Shown in pieces: positions 4,433 to 63,721 of a stretch of DNA of 64,000 nt. The position numbers and the translations under genes were made by a program. Origin of the DNA: an uncultured Bacteroidota bacterium (GTDB lineage: Bacteria > Bacteroidota > Bacteroidia > Flavobacteriales > Flavobacteriaceae). Below the pieces are notes generated by a model. It had not been told where the DNA came from. It made no database searches and worked only from the letters and a program-made list of their open reading frames with translations. Positions within the stretch are counted from its first letter, which is position 1, and each line of letters begins with the position of its first letter. The stretch is taken from positions 1 to 64,000 of the forward strand of contig CACNQJ010000006.1 in the NCBI GenBank assembly GCA_902622575.1, in the 5' to 3' direction.

Positions 4433-5305
4433 TTAACAAATATATTTTTTTACAAATTTACCAATATCAGCAGGAGAATCGGCAACATGTACTCCACATT
4501 CTTTTAAAATACTTTTCTTTGCAGCAGCAGTATCATTTTTGCCCCCAATTATAGCACCTGCATGTCCCATGGTTCTTCCTTTAGGGGCAGTTTCACCAGC
4601 AATGAATCCTATTACAGGCTTTTTGATTTTTGATTTTTTTATCCATTGAGCAGCATTATTCTCTAATTGACCACCGATTTCACCAATCATTACAACACAA
4701 TCAGTATCATCGTCTTCAAAAAAGAACTTAACTGCATCCTCAACTGTAGTACCAATTATTGGATCACCACCTATACCAATTGCTGTTGAAATTCCAAAAC
4801 CTTCTTTAACTATCTGATCTGCAGCTTCATATGTTAATGTGCCTGATTTAGAAACTAAACCTACTCTACCCTTTTTAAAAACAAATCCTGGCATTATACC
4901 AACTTTAGCTTCATCAGGTGTTATGATTCCAGGACAATTCGGTCCTATCAATGTACAATCCTTTTGCTTTATATAATTATAAACTTTGGTCATATCCATA
5001 ACTGGAATACCCTCAGTTATACAAACGATGACTCTTATTCCAGCATCAACTGATTCAAAAATTGCATCAGCAGCAAATCCAGCAGGAACGAATATGATTG
5101 ATGTGTTTGCTTTAGTTGCATTTACAGCATCTTCTACAGTGTTAAAAACAGGCTTATCCAAATGAATTAAACCTCCTTTTCCAGGTGTTACACCACCAAC
5201 AATGTTTGTTCCATACTCAATCATTTGTTGAGAATGAAATGTTCCTTCTGAACCTGTAAAACCTTGAACTATTATTTTTGACTCCTTATTGACTAGTATG
5301 CTCAT
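4433..5305 (-). CDS. sucD: Succinate-CoA ligase (ADP/GDP-forming) subunit alpha
   Basis: A 290-residue alpha subunit of succinyl-CoA synthetase, the substrate-level phosphorylation step of the TCA cycle. The N-terminal CoA-binding domain carries [20 protein letters not shown] and [21 protein letters not shown] lies mid-protein; the phosphohistidine loop is [13 protein letters not shown] near the C-terminus. Length is normal for the family. It sits 1 bp downstream of efp in the lpxD operon. The beta subunit gene (sucC) is not in this window. Confidence 0.96.
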
Positions 5306-31138: not shown

Positions 31139-31757
31139 TTTTTTCTATTTAATTAATAAACCAAAAAATAATACTAATAAATCACCATTAGTATTTCTTC
31201 TTCACGGGTTTGGCAGTAATGAGCAAGATCTTTTTTCGTTTTCGCCTTATTTAAATGAAGATGCGACAATTGTCTCTCTTAGAGCTCCAATCATACTTTA
31301 CCCCAACTCATATGCTTGGTATAATATATATTATTCTGGTTCAGTTAAAAGCTATGATAAAGAAGCTGCAAAATTGATAAGAGATAAATTAATTAATGAG
31401 TTGGATTATTTTATTAATAAATACGATTGTGATCCAAATAGAATTACATTGATTGGTTTTAGTCAAGGTGCAATTCTTGCTCATGCTATTGCTCAAAATT
31501 CGAATATTAAAAACTTGATTGCACTTAGTGGATATGTGGATGAAGAACTAATTTCCTTTGAAAAAACAAATAATTTATCAATATATATTTCCCATGGAAA
31601 GAATGATGAAGTTATACCTTTTGAAGAATCACTTAAAACAAATAAACTACTTGATAAAAATAATATTAAATATGAATTTAAAGCCTTTGATCAGGGACAC
31701 GGAGTTAATAGTGAAAATTTAGAATCCTTTTTGCACTGGTTAGAGGACAAGTATTAG
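31128..31757 (+). CDS. Alpha/beta hydrolase (phospholipase/carboxylesterase family)
   Basis: A 209-residue serine hydrolase. The oxyanion region is VFLLHGFGSNEQD, the nucleophile elbow GFSQGAILAHA, and the acid and base are in HGKNDEVIP and QGHGVN. The family hydrolyses carboxylic esters or lysophospholipids; the substrate here is unknown. The only suitable start is TTG 31128, which overlaps the dihydroorotase-like stop by 11 bp. Its stop overlaps the opposing MBL gene stop by 4 bp. Confidence 0.88.
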   Translation: METSFFYLINKPKNNTNKSPLVFLLHGFGSNEQDLFSFSPYLNEDATIVSLRAPIILYPNSYAWYNIYYSGSVKSYDKEAAKLIRDKLINELDYFINKYDCDPNRITLIGFSQGAILAHAIAQNSNIKNLIALSGYVDEELISFEKTNNLSIYISHGKNDEVIPFEESLKTNKLLDKNNIKYEFKAFDQGHGVNSENLESFLHWLEDKY

Positions 31758-32521
31758 TCATTTATAATTATTTCTAAACCATCAAATCCAAGTCTAACAG
31801 TTGACGGTAGCAACTTTTCTGTTTCACTATGTAAACCCATGTCTGGTGCAATGTGAGTCAAAAATGTTTTTTTGGGTTTTAACTCATTAATCAATTCTAA
31901 AGCTTGTTCTAAGTTGATATGTGAGTAATGTTCCCTGTGCCTTAGTGCATTTAAGATCAGTAAATCTAAATTTTTAAGTTTATCAAGCTCATTTTTCGAT
32001 ATCTTTTTCAAATCAGTTACGTAAGCAAAATTTTTAATTCTGAATCCATATACCTGCAATTTATGGTGCATGTAAGTAACAGGTAAAATTTCAATGCCCT
32101 CTAACACAAATTTTTTATTTTCGATTATGTTGGGAAATACGTGAGGAGATCCTGGATAATCATTTTTTACATCAAACAAATAATCAAATCTTTTACTTAG
32201 ATTTTTAATTACTCTTTCATGCGCAAAAATTGGTATTTTTCCGTGCTTAAAGGAAATTGGCCTCACATCATCCAGACCTGCTGTGTGATCAGCATGTTCG
32301 TGAGTAAATAAGATTGCATCCACTTTGGTTACACCTGTCCTTAACATTTGTTGCCTGAAATCTGGACCACAATCAATAACAATATTTTTATTTTTATACT
32401 CAACTAAAATTGAAGATCGTAGTCTGTTATCCCTCTTATCTTTACTAGAACATGATGCTCTCTCAACTCCAATTGTTGGTATTCCAGTACTAGTTCCAGT
32501 CCCTAAAAACGTAATCTTCAT
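31754..32521 (-). CDS. MBL-fold metallo-hydrolase
   Basis: A 255-residue metallo-beta-lactamase-fold hydrolase with FTHEHADHTAGLDDVRPISF (HxHxDH) and later metal-site regions YVTDLK and LTHIAPDMG. The start MKITFLGTGTSTGIPTIG is typical of the PhnP/RNase Z-like cytoplasmic subgroup. Cyclic phosphodiesterase or RNA-processing activity is possible; the substrate is unknown. It is divergent from the gene at 32597, and each has its own TAAATTTG box. Confidence 0.9.
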   Translation of the reverse strand: MKITFLGTGTSTGIPTIGVERASCSSKDKRDNRLRSSILVEYKNKNIVIDCGPDFRQQMLRTGVTKVDAILFTHEHADHTAGLDDVRPISFKHGKIPIFAHERVIKNLSKRFDYLFDVKNDYPGSPHVFPNIIENKKFVLEGIEILPVTYMHHKLQVYGFRIKNFAYVTDLKKISKNELDKLKNLDLLILNALRHREHYSHINLEQALELINELKPKKTFLTHIAPDMGLHSETEKLLPSTVRLGFDGLEIIIND

Positions 32522-32596: not shown

Positions 32597-33853
32597 ATGG
32601 TTGTATCATTAAAAGGTGATAAGGAATTTGAAAAACTATTATCTACTAAGGATAAAGCTCTAAGAATTAATCTTAATGACAATATATATGGCACGTTTGC
32701 TGAGATTGGTGCCGGTCAAGAAGTAGCTAGACATTTTTTTCGGGCAGGTGGAGCATCTGGAACGATTGCTAAAACAATGAGTGCTTACGATAAAGGGTTT
32801 AGCGATGCCATCTACGGCGTTGAGCATGATGAGAGATACGTCACAAAGTCCAGACTTAATAAAATGTTAAAGCATGAAATAAAGCTTCTTGAATCTAGAG
32901 TGCCAAGAAAAAAGAATCCTGAAAAAATGTTTTTCTCCTTTGCAAACACAGTTGCAACCATTGATTTTGCTAAAAAATATAAAGGTCATGGATGGATGGG
33001 CATTAAATTCCAAACTGACAGTTCACAAAAATACAGTGAAATCCAAATGCATATTCGTTTTCATTTAAATGATGCAAAATCTCAACAAGAGGTTTTGGGC
33101 ATAATGGGAGTTAATTTAATCTATGGAGCATATTATAAACACAATAAACCAAGATCACTAATTAAGTATCTTTATGATCATATTGACCCTAAATCAATTG
33201 AAATCGATACTATCAATTTTTCAGGCCCTCTTTTCAAAAAGGTTGATAACAGATTACTTAGTTTAGATTTAATAAAAAATAACATGACCCAAGCTGTGAT
33301 GTTTGGACCTGATGGTAAAAATATTTTACCAGCAGCAGAACTTTACAAAAAGAATATTTTAACAATTAGAGGCAGCTTCAGGCCCGTGACAAAAGTCAAT
33401 GAGGATATGTATGAAAAATCTTTGAGTTTAATATTAAAGAAAAGAGGATTCAATAAAAATAATACTAGCTCAATTTTTGAAATTACTTTGTCAAACTTAG
33501 TATCCGATGGACAAGTAAACGAGCAAGATTTTCTGGACAGAGCTAAATTATTGTGCTCGATGGGGAAAACAGTCATGATAACCAATTTCCAAGAATATTA
33601 TAAACTTTCTGAATATTTCAATAAATACACTGATAAAAAAATTGTTCTAACTATGGGTGTTGACAACCTAATTCAAGTTTTTGAGGAAAATTATTATTCT
33701 GATTTGAAGGGTGGAATACTAGAGGCCTTTGGAAATTTATTTTCGAAAAATGTAACTGTATTACTGTACCCCATGAAAAAAAATGGAAAACTTATTAATA
33801 GTAATAACCTGCAAGTTGACATCAAAATGAAAAACTTATATAAGTTTTTTTAA
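32597..33853 (+). CDS. Conserved flavobacterial protein (often mislabelled TonB-dependent receptor), frame broken near C-terminus
   Basis: A 418-residue soluble protein strongly resembling a conserved Bacteroidota family of about 480 residues, sometimes labelled TonB-dependent receptor in databases; nothing here looks like a barrel or signal peptide. Recognisable blocks include GTFAEIGAGQEVARHFFRAG, SFANTVATIDFAKKYKGHGW, FSGPLFKKVDNRL and ILEAFGNLF. The frame stops just after NLYKFF in a run of seven T (33845-33851). Removing one T continues the protein for about 57 residues (DIKDYNKKLLKIFSWKVL ... KKKKLFGYK) to a stop at 34020-34022, matching the expected family end. Either a sequencing indel or a real frameshift. 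Function unknown. Confidence 0.82.
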   Translation: MVVSLKGDKEFEKLLSTKDKALRINLNDNIYGTFAEIGAGQEVARHFFRAGGASGTIAKTMSAYDKGFSDAIYGVEHDERYVTKSRLNKMLKHEIKLLESRVPRKKNPEKMFFSFANTVATIDFAKKYKGHGWMGIKFQTDSSQKYSEIQMHIRFHLNDAKSQQEVLGIMGVNLIYGAYYKHNKPRSLIKYLYDHIDPKSIEIDTINFSGPLFKKVDNRLLSLDLIKNNMTQAVMFGPDGKNILPAAELYKKNILTIRGSFRPVTKVNEDMYEKSLSLILKKRGFNKNNTSSIFEITLSNLVSDGQVNEQDFLDRAKLLCSMGKTVMITNFQEYYKLSEYFNKYTDKKIVLTMGVDNLIQVFEENYYSDLKGGILEAFGNLFSKNVTVLLYPMKKNGKLINSNNLQVDIKMKNLYKFF

Positions 33854-34004
33854 AGACAGTGAAAAAATTCTTGACATCAAAGATTACAATAAAAAATTAT
33901 TGAAAATATTTTCATGGAAAGTGCTTGAAAAAATTAAAAATGGAGATGACGATTGGGAAAATGATATTCCAATCAATGTGTCTAAATTAATCAAGAAGAA
34001 AAAA

Positions 34005-34487
34005 TTATTCGGATACAAATAAAATTATTATTCCTCCTTTAAAATTTGATCCGTTGGATTTTTTTGTATTTACCTTATCAATAACCCTTATAACGGTAGA
34101 ATTTTCATCAAAAATAAAAGTCATTCTGTGTATTCCTTCATATTCCCTACCCATAAACTTTTTTGGGCCCCATACACCAAATAACTTGACTAAATTCTTT
34201 TCGGTATCAGCTAATAAAGGGTATTGGAAACCAAACTTTTTTGAAAATTTATCCTGGGTCTCGACCTTGTCACAACTTACACCTAATATAGTGTAGCCTT
34301 TAGCAACTAAATTATCATAATTTTCTGATAAGTTACATGCCTCAGCTGTACATCCCGGTGTATTTGCTCTAGGATAGAAGAAGACTATTAATTTTTTTCC
34401 TAAAAAATCTCTACTACTAACTTTTTCACCATTATTTGCATAACATTCGAATTCTGGCATCTTATCGCCTAATTTTAAAGTATTCAT
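34005..34487 (-). CDS. bcp: Thioredoxin-dependent peroxiredoxin Bcp, frame shifted at C-terminus
   Basis: A peroxiredoxin of the BCP/PrxQ type with the peroxidatic Cys in FFYPRANTPGCTAEACNLSE and the adjacent resolving Cys; GVWGPKKFMGREYEGIHRMTF is a flavobacterial hallmark. It reduces hydroperoxides using thioredoxin. ATG 34487 (MNTLKLGDKMPEF) is the start. The tail after VNTKK is abnormal: it arises from seven T on the plus strand at 34059-34065. With six T it would read KNPTDQILKEE and stop at 34028, the expected ending. As it stands it overlaps the intact end of the opposing gene. Confidence 0.88.
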   Translation of the reverse strand: MNTLKLGDKMPEFECYANNGEKVSSRDFLGKKLIVFFYPRANTPGCTAEACNLSENYDNLVAKGYTILGVSCDKVETQDKFSKKFGFQYPLLADTEKNLVKLFGVWGPKKFMGREYEGIHRMTFIFDENSTVIRVIDKVNTKKSNGSNFKGGIIILFVSE

Positions 34488-34500
34488 TAATAAAAATTTT

Positions 34501-35163
34501 ATGAGTAAATTTAGTAAAATGAATAAACCTGAAAAAATTAAATTTATCATTAAAGTTTTGGAGGATTTATTCCCTAAGATTGAAATACCTCTTGATCACA
34601 AAGATCCATATACATTACTCATCGCTGTACTTTTGTCAGCACAAAGCACTGATGCAGGTGTAAACAAAATAACTCCAATTCTGTTTTCCAAAGCAGACAA
34701 CCCATATGATATGGTTAAATTAACAGTAAATCAGATAAGGGAGATAATTAAGCCAGTTGGTTTGTCGCCAATGAAATCAAAAGGCATACATGGTCTTTCT
34801 AAAATTTTAATAGAAAAATATGACGGAAAAGTACCAAAAAGCTTTGAAGCTTTGGAAAGTCTTCCTGCTGTTGGGCATAAGACAGCAAGCGTAGTCATGT
34901 CTCAAGCTTTTGGCGTAGATGCCTTCCCTGTTGACACTCATATACATCGTTTAATGTATAGATGGGGTCTTTCAAATGGAAAAAGTGTAAAAAAAACAGA
35001 GGAGGATGCTAAAAGGCTTTTTCCTAAAAACCTATGGAACAAACTTCACATTCAAATAATACTTTATGGCAGAAAATTTTCACCGGCAAGAGGCTGGAAA
35101 ATAAAAGATGATATAATCATGCTAAAAGTAGGTAGAAAGTCAATAATTAAAAAAATGATTTAA
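34501..35163 (+). CDS. nth: Endonuclease III-type DNA glycosylase without iron-sulfur cluster
   Basis: A 220-residue helix-hairpin-helix DNA glycosylase/AP lyase that removes oxidised pyrimidines. The HhH segment is LPAVGHKTASVVMSQAFG with the catalytic Lys in GHKTA, and the catalytic Asp is in FPVDTHIHR. The protein contains no Cys at all, so the C-terminal 4Fe-4S cluster of classical Nth is absent; SPARGWKIKDD occupies that place. The start at 34501 is 13 bp from the bcp start on the other strand; an alternative ATG is 34519. Its stop overlaps the nuclease stop by 4 bp. Confidence 0.9.
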   Translation: MSKFSKMNKPEKIKFIIKVLEDLFPKIEIPLDHKDPYTLLIAVLLSAQSTDAGVNKITPILFSKADNPYDMVKLTVNQIREIIKPVGLSPMKSKGIHGLSKILIEKYDGKVPKSFEALESLPAVGHKTASVVMSQAFGVDAFPVDTHIHRLMYRWGLSNGKSVKKTEEDAKRLFPKNLWNKLHIQIILYGRKFSPARGWKIKDDIIMLKVGRKSIIKKMI

Positions 35164-44082: not shown

Positions 44083-45186
44083 TTAATTAAAAATTATTTT
44101 TTTTATCTCCGTTCTAATATTATTCTCAATCAATTTTTTATTTTCCATGGTTGGAAATGTTCTATTCGACAAAAAAACGTAAACAATGTTACTTTTAGGA
44201 TCTGCCCAAGCATATGTACCAGTGAAACCTGAGTGACCAAAACTTTCTCTAGAAACGCAATCTGGAGAGGTAGTTTCATTGTTATCTATCTCAGGTTTAT
44301 CAAATCCTATGCCTCTTCTAACATTCTCATTGCAAAAGTGACATTGATTAAATAAATCAAAAGTATTAGCAGAAAAGAATTTAAAATCATCATAATCGCC
44401 TTTCTGCAGATATAATTGCATTAATTTTGCTACATCAAGAGAATTACCAAAGAGACCTGCATGGCCTCCAATTCCACCCTGCATTGCTGCTCCCATGTCA
44501 TGAACAAAACCTTTAACTATCCCATATCTAAAATATGTGTCAATTTCAGATGGTACAATCAAATGTTTTTGCATAATTTGATATGGATTGTATGTGAGAG
44601 AACTTGCACCAATCTTATAAAATAGATAATTTTTTATCATTGAATCTAAATTTGATGAATATTTATTTTCAAGGTATTTTTTTAATAAATAATAGGGTAA
44701 ATCACTGTATTTGTATTCTTTTTTCTCAAGTAACTTTGAATTAATTATCCTGTTAAAAATTGTATCATTCCAGGATTTCATAAATAATCCCTCTCTAACT
44801 TGAATATTGAATGTTTCTGTTTTATTATATGAGTATTGATCTTCTAATTGTTTGTTGGTAACTGAATCCAATGTTTCCTTGTAAAATGGAATCCATGGTG
44901 TTAATCGAGCATTATGCGATAAAATTTCATCCAATTTCAGATTTTTTTTATCATATAACTCAAAATCTTTAAAAAGATCCTTTAATTTGGTGTTAAGGCT
45001 TAAATTATTTTTTTCGAATTCCCTAATAATTAGTGGTACAGTAACGAGAATTTTAGTAAGAGATGCTAAATCATAAATATCATCGTTATTTACTTTTCGA
45101 ATTTTTTCATAAGTATGGTATCCAAATGATTTTTGATAAATAACACTGCCCTCCTTAGCTATTAGAACCTGTGCCCCAGGTGTCAT
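44083..45186 (-). CDS. Serine beta-lactamase-type domain, C-terminal part of a split GH3 fusion
   Basis: A 367-residue class C beta-lactamase/penicillin-binding-protein-like domain with SxxK in DLASLTKIL, a YxD-type second motif (YSDLPYYLL) and HSG in ESFGHSGFTGTYAWAD. It has no signal peptide, and the frame stays open upstream of its ATG through SRLKKIDSIVNYAIKNK back into the poly-T tract at 45282-45291. There a single-base change would fuse it to the GH3 gene, as in full-length Bacteroidota homologues of roughly 960-1000 residues. I regard it as the C-terminal half of that gene. Likely role: peptidoglycan or D-amino-acid peptide processing. Confidence 0.85.
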   Translation of the reverse strand: MTPGAQVLIAKEGSVIYQKSFGYHTYEKIRKVNNDDIYDLASLTKILVTVPLIIREFEKNNLSLNTKLKDLFKDFELYDKKNLKLDEILSHNARLTPWIPFYKETLDSVTNKQLEDQYSYNKTETFNIQVREGLFMKSWNDTIFNRIINSKLLEKKEYKYSDLPYYLLKKYLENKYSSNLDSMIKNYLFYKIGASSLTYNPYQIMQKHLIVPSEIDTYFRYGIVKGFVHDMGAAMQGGIGGHAGLFGNSLDVAKLMQLYLQKGDYDDFKFFSANTFDLFNQCHFCNENVRRGIGFDKPEIDNNETTSPDCVSRESFGHSGFTGTYAWADPKSNIVYVFLSNRTFPTMENKKLIENNIRTEIKKIIFN

Positions 45187-45272
45187 TTTATTTTTTATTG
45201 CATAATTGACTATAGAGTCTATCTTTTTTAATCTTGAGCTACTAAAATCTTTGTTTAGGTGATGTTCAAAAC

Positions 45273-46967
45273 CTAAAAGTCTTTTTTTTTTAGTATGATT
45301 GAAGTATTAACGGGAATATCCTTATTAATCGATACTGGTAATACACCCTTTACATTAATAGCTCCAAATAGGGCTTGTGCAGCTTTAGTTTGAAATACTT
45401 TAGAGTTTTGGTATGAAATAAGTATAGATTCTATCCCCCTTACATCCAGATCTAACATTGAGTAAGGTTTAGCAAAAACAACAATGGTAAGATTAGTTTT
45501 TGATTTTATTTTATCAATAAAGGATATTTCATCAGCTGAAAATTTATAATCTGCAAATGGAGAATCATCTGTTTTGTGTAATCCAATAATTATTTTATCA
45601 TAAGCTATGGATTTTTCAAATAAAGAATCGCTATTGGATTTATTTATGTGAGATACCTTTTTGTAATTATTTAAATATTTAAAAAATGTATCGTGCGAAT
45701 CATCCCCAAATTTTATATACCCTATCGATTCATCATTAGAAGTAGTGAAAGGTAAATTATCTATGTCATTTTTAACAAGAGTTATTGACTCCTCTGCTAA
45801 TTTATCTAGCAAGGCATAGTCTTCATCCTGATTCATATCTTCAACAATATTTTCAATTTCAATAGGTTTGAAGTTATTCACGCCAGACTTGTATTTAGCC
45901 AATAGTAGTTTTTTTACTGCTTTTTCTAATCTTTGGGATGAGATTTTTTTCCTCTGAAGGCCTTTTTTTATTTCTTTTATACTTTTTGCTATATCTGTTG
46001 GCATCAATAACAAATCATTTCCTGCATTTAATGCACTAACGTCAGGATAATTACCCTTACTAAAATCAACAATAGCCTTCATGTCTAGTGCATCTGTAAT
46101 AACTAGCCCCTCAAATCCTAAATCTTCAATCAAGAGTCCATTAATAATTTTATCGGACAATGTTGATATTTCATTTTTATCAAGATTAGGTATGTTAAGA
46201 TGAGCTGTCATAACACCATCAAGATTATTGTCAATTAATTGCCTAAAAGGATATAACTCAACATTATTAATTCTTTCTTTGGAAAAACTAATCGAAGGAA
46301 GAGTTAAGTGTGAATCAGTTTCAGTATCACCATGTCCTGGAAAATGTTTTGCTGCACCCATGATACCATAATGATGCATACCCTTCAGGTAATTAATAGC
46401 TTTTCGACTTACGTTAAATTTATCCTCTCCAAATGATCTACTTCCAATTATTGGGTTTCTAGGATTTGTATTAATATCAACTACAGGTGCAAAATTTATA
46501 TGAACACCCAATCGTTTTGCGTGATATCCAATACGTTTTCCGACTTCGAAAACTAAACTATCATTTTTAATAGCTCCCAATGTCATATTATATGGGAAAG
46601 AAAAGGCGTCATCTAGCCTCATGCCAACACCCCATTCAGCATCCATTGATATAAGTAAAGGAACTTTTGATATTTTTTGAAAATGATTAATGGCTTTACC
46701 CTGATCCTTAATATTACCCAAAGAAAAAATAAGACCTCCTAAATGATGTTCTTTAATCAAATTGGATATATGATTAATTTCATCAGATCCATATTTTGTT
46801 GCAACCCACACAGTGAACAATTGGCCTATTTTTTCATCAATTGTTAAACTACTATATACACTGTCTACCCACTTTTTTTGTTCATTGTAATCATTAGAAA
46901 TTAGTGGACCTTGAGAATGGTTATAGGTAAATACGAAAAAAAGGAGGGTTATTAATATTTTTTTCAT
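45273..46967 (-). CDS. Glycoside hydrolase family 3 beta-N-acetylhexosaminidase-type, N-terminal part of split fusion
   Basis: A 564-residue GH3 enzyme with signal peptide. NagZ-type features include GSRSFGEDKFNVSRKA, the His/Asp general acid loop KHFPGHGDTETDSHLTLPSI, and the nucleophile Asp in VITDALDMKAI. The C-terminal (alpha/beta) domain ends LPVSINKDIPVNTSIIL and then stops after KKKDF in a run of ten A (minus strand). One more A would continue into the beta-lactamase-like frame. The intact fusion likely works in the periplasm on muropeptides, removing GlcNAc. Its ATG overlaps the upstream gene by 4 bp. Confidence 0.9.
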   Translation of the reverse strand: MKKILITLLFFVFTYNHSQGPLISNDYNEQKKWVDSVYSSLTIDEKIGQLFTVWVATKYGSDEINHISNLIKEHHLGGLIFSLGNIKDQGKAINHFQKISKVPLLISMDAEWGVGMRLDDAFSFPYNMTLGAIKNDSLVFEVGKRIGYHAKRLGVHINFAPVVDINTNPRNPIIGSRSFGEDKFNVSRKAINYLKGMHHYGIMGAAKHFPGHGDTETDSHLTLPSISFSKERINNVELYPFRQLIDNNLDGVMTAHLNIPNLDKNEISTLSDKIINGLLIEDLGFEGLVITDALDMKAIVDFSKGNYPDVSALNAGNDLLLMPTDIAKSIKEIKKGLQRKKISSQRLEKAVKKLLLAKYKSGVNNFKPIEIENIVEDMNQDEDYALLDKLAEESITLVKNDIDNLPFTTSNDESIGYIKFGDDSHDTFFKYLNNYKKVSHINKSNSDSLFEKSIAYDKIIIGLHKTDDSPFADYKFSADEISFIDKIKSKTNLTIVVFAKPYSMLDLDVRGIESILISYQNSKVFQTKAAQALFGAINVKGVLPVSINKDIPVNTSIILKKKDF

Positions 46968-63698: not shown

Positions 63699-63721
63699 TA
63701 TATTTATAAAAAACAAAGATT

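Follow-up and report, generated by a model that had tools for sequence, protein, structure and literature searches.

A probable private homopolymer frameshift in a conserved Flavobacteriaceae gene, and a recurrently out-of-frame GH3-beta-lactamase gene in the same genomic window

A gene conserved among Flavobacteriaceae carries, in the genome of one uncultured member of this family, a one-base frameshift in its 3' part, located in a run of seven T and followed in the next frame by the usual C-terminus of the protein. This arrangement is very probably a single-base homopolymer frameshift private to this genome, resulting either from a recent mutation or from a technical event. The break was identified in a window of 64,000 nucleotides, part of contig C6 of the genome (G000). 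The window also contains a second gene, a fusion of GH3 and beta-lactamase-family domains, whose frame is interrupted at long A tracts in several species of the genus and which is a better candidate for slippage.

Results and discussion

Organization of the interrupted gene

The frame opening at 32597 ends with NLYKFF and meets a TAA directly after the T7 tract (Table 1), in agreement with the first-pass annotation, made from the sequence without database searches. That annotation also proposed an extension of about 57 codons in the next frame; its closing stop was correctly placed and its length is 56 codons instead, without any stop between 33852 and 34019, encoding KDSEKILDIKDYNKKLLKIFSWKVLEKIKNGDDDWENDIPINVSKLIKKKKLFGYK. 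At the junction the genome reads AAG TTTTTTT AAA GAC against AAG TTT TTC AAA GAC in the five nearest relatives, so that overlapping UUU codons precede the stop and the UAA has A as its next base. The gene is flanked upstream by a gene resembling MBL-fold-type hydrolases, a similar gene adjoining the homologue in G023, G064 and G134, and downstream by a Bcp-type peroxiredoxin ORF, which overlaps the final bases of the tail and is also found beside homologues in relatives.

The gene is present as a single copy in this draft (1.27 Mb, 32 contigs, 82% complete). A second, intact copy elsewhere in the genome was considered and rejected, only one match being found at this completeness. Separate translation of the tail was likewise set aside on account of the lack of any ATG/Met codon in it, although a TTG start remains conceivable.

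Table 1. Features of the window discussed in the text, with their positions and strands
Feature	Position	Strand	Remarks
Upstream neighbour, MBL-fold-type hydrolase	31754..32521	-	Named by resemblance
Truncated ORF	32597..33853	+	418 aa; CinA-like domain (~residues 12-186) and most of a NadD/NMNAT-like domain (from ~residue 251)
T7 tract at the frame break	33845..33851	+	TTT TTC AAA at this place in the five nearest relatives
Premature TAA resulting from the frame change	33851..33853	+	Read in the sequence
56-codon tail in the +1 frame, with TAA 34020-34022	33852..34022	+	Usual C-terminus, comprising the final helices of the NadD-like domain
Downstream neighbour, Bcp-type peroxiredoxin, convergent	34005..34550	-	Named by resemblance
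Fusion gene of GH3 and beta-lactamase family, out of frame with itself	44083..46967	-	Frame comparison, Pfam
T10 on the + strand (A10 when read in the coding direction), where the GH3 and beta-lactamase parts join	45282..45291	-	GH3 frame meets a stop two codons further on

Integrity of the gene among relatives

The junction was read in 124 loci of relatives (109 distinct, 15 genomes having been fetched by two routes), and every one of them continues in a single frame for at least 56 residues beyond it. Close homologues ending naturally at NLYKFF, which the first-pass annotation had named as the observation that would contradict it, are absent from these 124 loci. On sequence comparison the break is therefore private to this genome among the relatives read. 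Within the genus, 17 of the 23 genomes searched (including the present one) possess the gene, with an open frame of 419 here versus 475-484 in the 16 others; the six genomes without a match are drafts, 56-84% complete. All 16 of these same-genus relatives and 28 further members of the family are unbroken, bearing out the annotation's description of a conserved flavobacterial gene interrupted in a T7 tract, its C-terminus being readable in the adjacent frame. At 56 residues the tail is exactly as long as the corresponding part of the five nearest relatives, and it carries the usual residue in 11 of the 12 tail columns conserved at 90% or above among 49 relatives, which exceeds chance agreement. 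Both features characteristic of a private homopolymer frameshift, unbroken relatives and a break located inside a homopolymer, are thus found here.

In the family sample, the gene was matched in 195 of 199 genomes (160 of 164 of good quality), and among the family matches listed every copy but the present one has an open frame of at least 478. The absence of a match in 4 of the 164 good-quality genomes indicates that the gene is conserved, yet not indispensable. Six family genomes have shorter frames from other causes, namely internal breaks, gaps or fragments: the copy of G023 is broken near residue 368 and that of G134 near residue 250, the latter in an assembly rich in N, the copy of G064 contains undetermined bases in its run-in, and those of G080, G138 and G168 are partial. 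None of these six was seen to break at the T7 site, G023, G134 and G064 being the three whose sequence was read. The gene is duplicated in places, with three full-length copies in G053 and two in G122.

At the scale of the phylum, a match was obtained in 79 of the 392 genomes sampled, the present one included. In seven of these 79 the homologue aligns only to residue 432-438, which still lies 14-20 residues beyond the break at 418; judging from these alignments, the last ~36 residues are not universal across the phylum. The proposal that the extension represents the normal family ending consequently stands for the Flavobacteriaceae read and does not extend to these seven genomes.

Constraint on the tail and age of the break

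Between this genome and its five nearest relatives, the tail displays pN values of 0.118-0.144 and pS values of 0.59-0.76, and the last 56 codons of the head pN values of 0.106-0.135 and pS values of 0.69-1.02. Unbroken pairs of similar distance (L053 versus L054-L057) have a tail pN of 0.094-0.122, the value of 0.144 obtained between the present genome and L053 being somewhat above them. The resemblance of pN/pS between the tail and the last head codons implies that selection acted on the tail during most of the divergence time. As far as substitution patterns tell, the break is recent or technical because the tail is still constrained, which agrees with what the first-pass annotation had drawn from the stop-free extension, and an old pseudogene is ruled out by this constraint.

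A further slight hint of relaxed constraint is residue 421, which is S in this genome and N in all 81 relatives tested. The genome thereby violates one of the six invariant columns of the tail and none of the 130 of the head; when each of the 81 relatives was left out in turn, 1 of 487 invariant columns was violated in the tail and 27 of 10557 in the head. This change at an otherwise invariant tail residue speaks weakly against an artefact and for a real mutation that has already aged slightly, being a single residue noticed after the fact.

Predicted folds and consequences for the protein

An AlphaFold2 model of the intact protein of the nearest relative, G008, was obtained with a mean pLDDT of 86.4. 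Its residues 251-473 superpose on 1nup_A (best Z 16.2, rmsd 3.4, 199 aligned of 213), and the match of residues ~251-473 to NMN/NaMN adenylyltransferases covers these enzymes almost from end to end (best Foldseek E 7.3e-07). Residues 12-181 superpose on the CinA-type 5vu3_E (Z 14.1, rmsd 3.1, 146 aligned). Both a nucleotidyltransferase fold and a CinA C-terminal-type fold are thus recognized in the predicted model, according to which the family may consist of two-domain proteins, CinA-like then NadD/NMNAT-like, whose function may differ from those of their structural counterparts. In a profile comparison with the NadD of the same genome, the tail (LLKIFSWKVL...IPKKVSALIKKKKLF) aligns to the NadD C-terminus (VMKISSREIR...VPSQVHKFILDKNLY) with a low probability (15.7%), at the position expected.

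The likeness to NadD/NMNAT and CinA/PncC concerns the predicted folds, whereas the signature motifs are altered and Pfam matches are lacking. Of GxFxPx(H/T)xxH and ISSTxxR, the NadD/NMNAT signatures, the first is replaced in the family by GSFRPVT.VN and the second keeps one S at 90%; in place of the AESCTGG-type active-site motif of CinA/PncC, the family has EIGAGQE at an apparently comparable place. Given these altered motifs, we claim the folds and not the activities. Neither a convincing Pfam model nor a CinA match was obtained among 49 family members, Pfam and NCBIfam searches with the protein returned only sub-threshold matches to unrelated models, and a sequence search of the PDB gave one chance-level match (E 1.2) and no other. 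Plasmid records yielded no useful result, and among the publications listed by our literature search none joins CinA-like and NMNAT-like domains in its title or the start of its abstract.

In the model, the break falls inside the helix formed by residues 409-420, and the closing helices that it eliminates are among the confidently predicted parts. Ordinary decoding would yield a protein of 418 residues retaining the CinA-like N-terminal domain; the 56 lost residues would complete the NadD/NMNAT-like C-terminal domain, which is probably non-functional in this truncated form. The tail would not be expected as a separate product, and the full-length protein would be present at trace level at most. 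The genome also encodes an ordinary nadD (C2:50232-50786) and an ordinary cinA (C15), so that loss of the gene need not stop NAD synthesis.

Origin of the frameshift

Runs of at least seven A or T account for 1.6-1.8% of this genome's comparable coding sequence, a scarcity such that a break inside one of them points to homopolymer slippage. In a survey of frame breaks comparing contigs C6 and C3 with G008:C2 and G003:C1, two credible breaks were found in ~155 kb of comparable coding sequence, both on C6 and in A/T runs of at least seven. Stretches of C1 and C2 gave no best match from the ORFs of G008:C2 or G003:C1, and the survey consequently concerns C6 and C3. Two other apparent breaks were discarded: one near 63710, in a gene TamB-like by resemblance, appeared in the first version of the test only and looks like an effect of the N-terminal start codon, and one near 5305 corresponds to a weak match of a 110-residue ORF and was left uncounted. 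Of 59 T7 runs within the compared genes, a single one sits at a break, hence a T7 run is no signal by itself.

Homopolymer slippage would have made the tract T7, through a replication slip in the recent ancestry of the organism or during amplification, sequencing or assembly. We infer, within the frameshift explanation, that a real recent mutation is somewhat the better supported of the two, a technical origin retaining a smaller but substantial share. A purely technical event, in which a base was gained in whole-genome amplification, sequencing or assembly while the gene of the living organism is intact, is overall a serious though less probable possibility: the assembly is an incomplete draft in many contigs, and homology-validated singleton frameshifts are expected to be sequencing errors according to Antonov et al. 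2013 (PMC3711429). Besides the change at residue 421, the count of just one affected T7 run and the absence of any break in ~153 kb of the two relatives compared weigh against it, as does the statement in the same paper that breaks near the 3' end are likelier than others to be true indels. The present case shares with the singleton homopolymer frameshifts described there for prokaryotic assemblies its restriction to one genome, its intact homologues and its position near the 3' end; no essential difference from them is apparent, the tail being here almost undecayed.

Also on the side of a technical origin, of the 16 same-genus relatives possessing the gene 10 bear AG- names, used for single-cell genomes (several of them are titled MAG), and 5 are named MAGs.

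Recoding and short-form alternatives

A functional recoding site would likewise leave the tail nearly undecayed, and two kinds of recoding were weighed, which even together appear improbable at the T7 tract. A programmed +1 ribosomal frameshift at UUU UUU UAA, producing a short and a long protein in the manner of prfB, is very unlikely. On paper, tRNA-Phe on UUU can re-pair perfectly on the overlapping UUU, and the prfB of this genome (G000:C3, ~136436-137449) has a standard programmed +1 site, AGGAGG followed by CTTTGAC, implying that +1 shifting presumably exists in this organism. In addition, 21 genomes with poly-T/Phe slippery prfB sites are reported in PMC12421855; they resemble the T7 site in that a Phe codon lies within a T run ahead of a stop and in the +1 direction, but retain the SD-like element and the UGA. 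The T7 site has no AGGAGG-like element upstream, its stop is UAA-A instead of the weak UGA-C, both of these prfB features being present in the organism's own prfB, and neither the slippery site nor the frame offset is conserved in any of the 124 relatives. Moreover, according to the same study, Flavobacterium johnsoniae shifts inefficiently even at the prfB motif.

Transcriptional slippage at the tract, the first-pass annotation's alternative of a poly-U tract yielding two products, would create a mixture of mRNAs from which some full-length protein is made, the frameshift being tolerated or rescued as proposed in Blochmannia. The window is AT-rich (GC 0.31), such a rescue of homopolymer frameshifts has been proposed for reduced genomes (PMC3017870), and the GH3-beta-lactamase gene of the same window, with its longer tract, looks like such a case. 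The Blochmannia and Buchnera poly-A/T frameshifts of that source likewise concern AT-rich reduced genomes and otherwise intact genes broken in A/T tracts; they include, however, an 11-A tract and some frameshifts conserved between species, two properties that the T7 gene lacks, and the GH3-beta-lactamase gene fits their pattern better. The break occurs in this genome only, and restoring the frame requires the loss of one base or the gain of two, whereas insertions dominate in A/T runs of E. coli and Buchnera transcripts (of 57 deletions in Buchnera, only 16 fell in homopolymers), the rate rises exponentially with tract length, for which seven is short, and no frame-restoring transcription error was found in Buchnera (PMC5574713). 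The bacterial cases considered for comparison use tracts of 9 (Thermus dnaX) and 11 (tssM), and the long A/T tract at a conserved place that typifies programmed slippage is here replaced by a T7 in one genome. In tssM of Citrobacter rodentium, too, a stop directly follows the homopolymer and the C-terminal domain lies in the +1 frame, but an A is added to an A11 tract there (PMC4256274), whereas the shorter T7 would need a deletion. Slippage at T7 is accordingly disfavoured and we hold it to be quite unlikely. Least probable of all is a newly evolved, adaptive short protein of 418 residues: the seven distant homologues with shortened alignments and the four family genomes without the gene suggest that the C-terminus, or even the gene, is dispensable somewhere, but the cut falls within a predicted helix, removes more than the short homologues lack, and the tail is kept by every same-genus relative that has the gene.

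A recurrent frame break in the GH3-beta-lactamase gene

The second break of the window affects a gene in which a GH3 domain (PF00933, E 1.3e-78) is followed by a beta-lactamase-family domain (PF00144, E 8.7e-26). Among the family matches listed, its open frames span 966-1051 residues, with one of 868 that starts at a contig edge. Elsewhere on the same contig, outside the window, an A11 tract at G000:C6:93951 is crossed by a frame that remains open. The gene is out of frame in 7 of 15 genomes of the genus possessing it, each time at a long A tract (A9-A14) at one of two sites. At site 1, the domain junction, these are the present genome, G013 and G021 (A10 each) and G019 (A9), and in all four the GH3 frame stops a few codons past the tract; at site 2, ~60 residues further, they are G017 (A14), G001 and G005 (A10 each). 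G008 has an A14 at site 1 and is in frame, and the other seven genomes, likewise in frame, have tracts no longer than A8 at that site, the only one to which this figure applies. G001 and G005 are named MAGs, and G013, G019 and G021 carry AG- names, used for single-cell genomes; the occurrence of breaks in both types makes the pattern independent of one method. Constraint downstream of the break is strong among out-of-frame genomes: between G013, G021 and G019, pN/pS is 0.13-0.15 after the break and 0.07-0.17 before it, the downstream value being similar to that of in-frame pairs (0.10-0.18).

One added A would rejoin the frames in six of the seven cases, G019 being the exception, and added bases correspond to the favoured direction of slippage in A/T runs (PMC5574713). 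The same domain architecture is known from RmNag3 of Rhodothermus marinus (PMC6987092). From these sequence patterns, the odds are slightly in favour of transcriptional slippage at the A9-A14 tracts, through which the gene would produce a GH3-only protein together with the fusion; by analogy with tssM (PMC4256274), this reading is the favoured one. Otherwise, DNA slippage may cause phase variation here, or breaks may have arisen recently and repeatedly. Owing to shared ancestry, fewer independent events can be counted in favour of transcriptional slippage, A10-A11 tracts also occur within frames that stay open, and the Buchnera transcripts revealed no frame-restoring slip (PMC5574713). Publications on slippage in marine flavobacteria were searched for, and none was found among the matches listed.

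Conclusions

The T7 break is most probably an ordinary private homopolymer frameshift. Programmed recoding at this place is unlikely because the site is unconserved, the tract is short, with only seven T, the direction is unfavoured for transcriptional slippage and prfB-like signals are missing. Annotations of the gene should record a frameshift and not a shorter natural protein, a curation flag being the best use of this observation. Predicted folds are now assigned to a family that is conserved in Bacteroidota and lacks a Pfam match. It is the GH3-beta-lactamase gene, and not the T7 gene, that represents the candidate for slippage: it is broken repeatedly, in different species, while both halves are under constraint, making it worth a slippage experiment. 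A broader picture would be that coding A/T tracts act as leaky frame switches in this low-GC marine genus, the GH3-beta-lactamase gene being the recurrent case and the T7 gene a newborn, weaker one still yielding some full-length protein; we regard it as a long shot.
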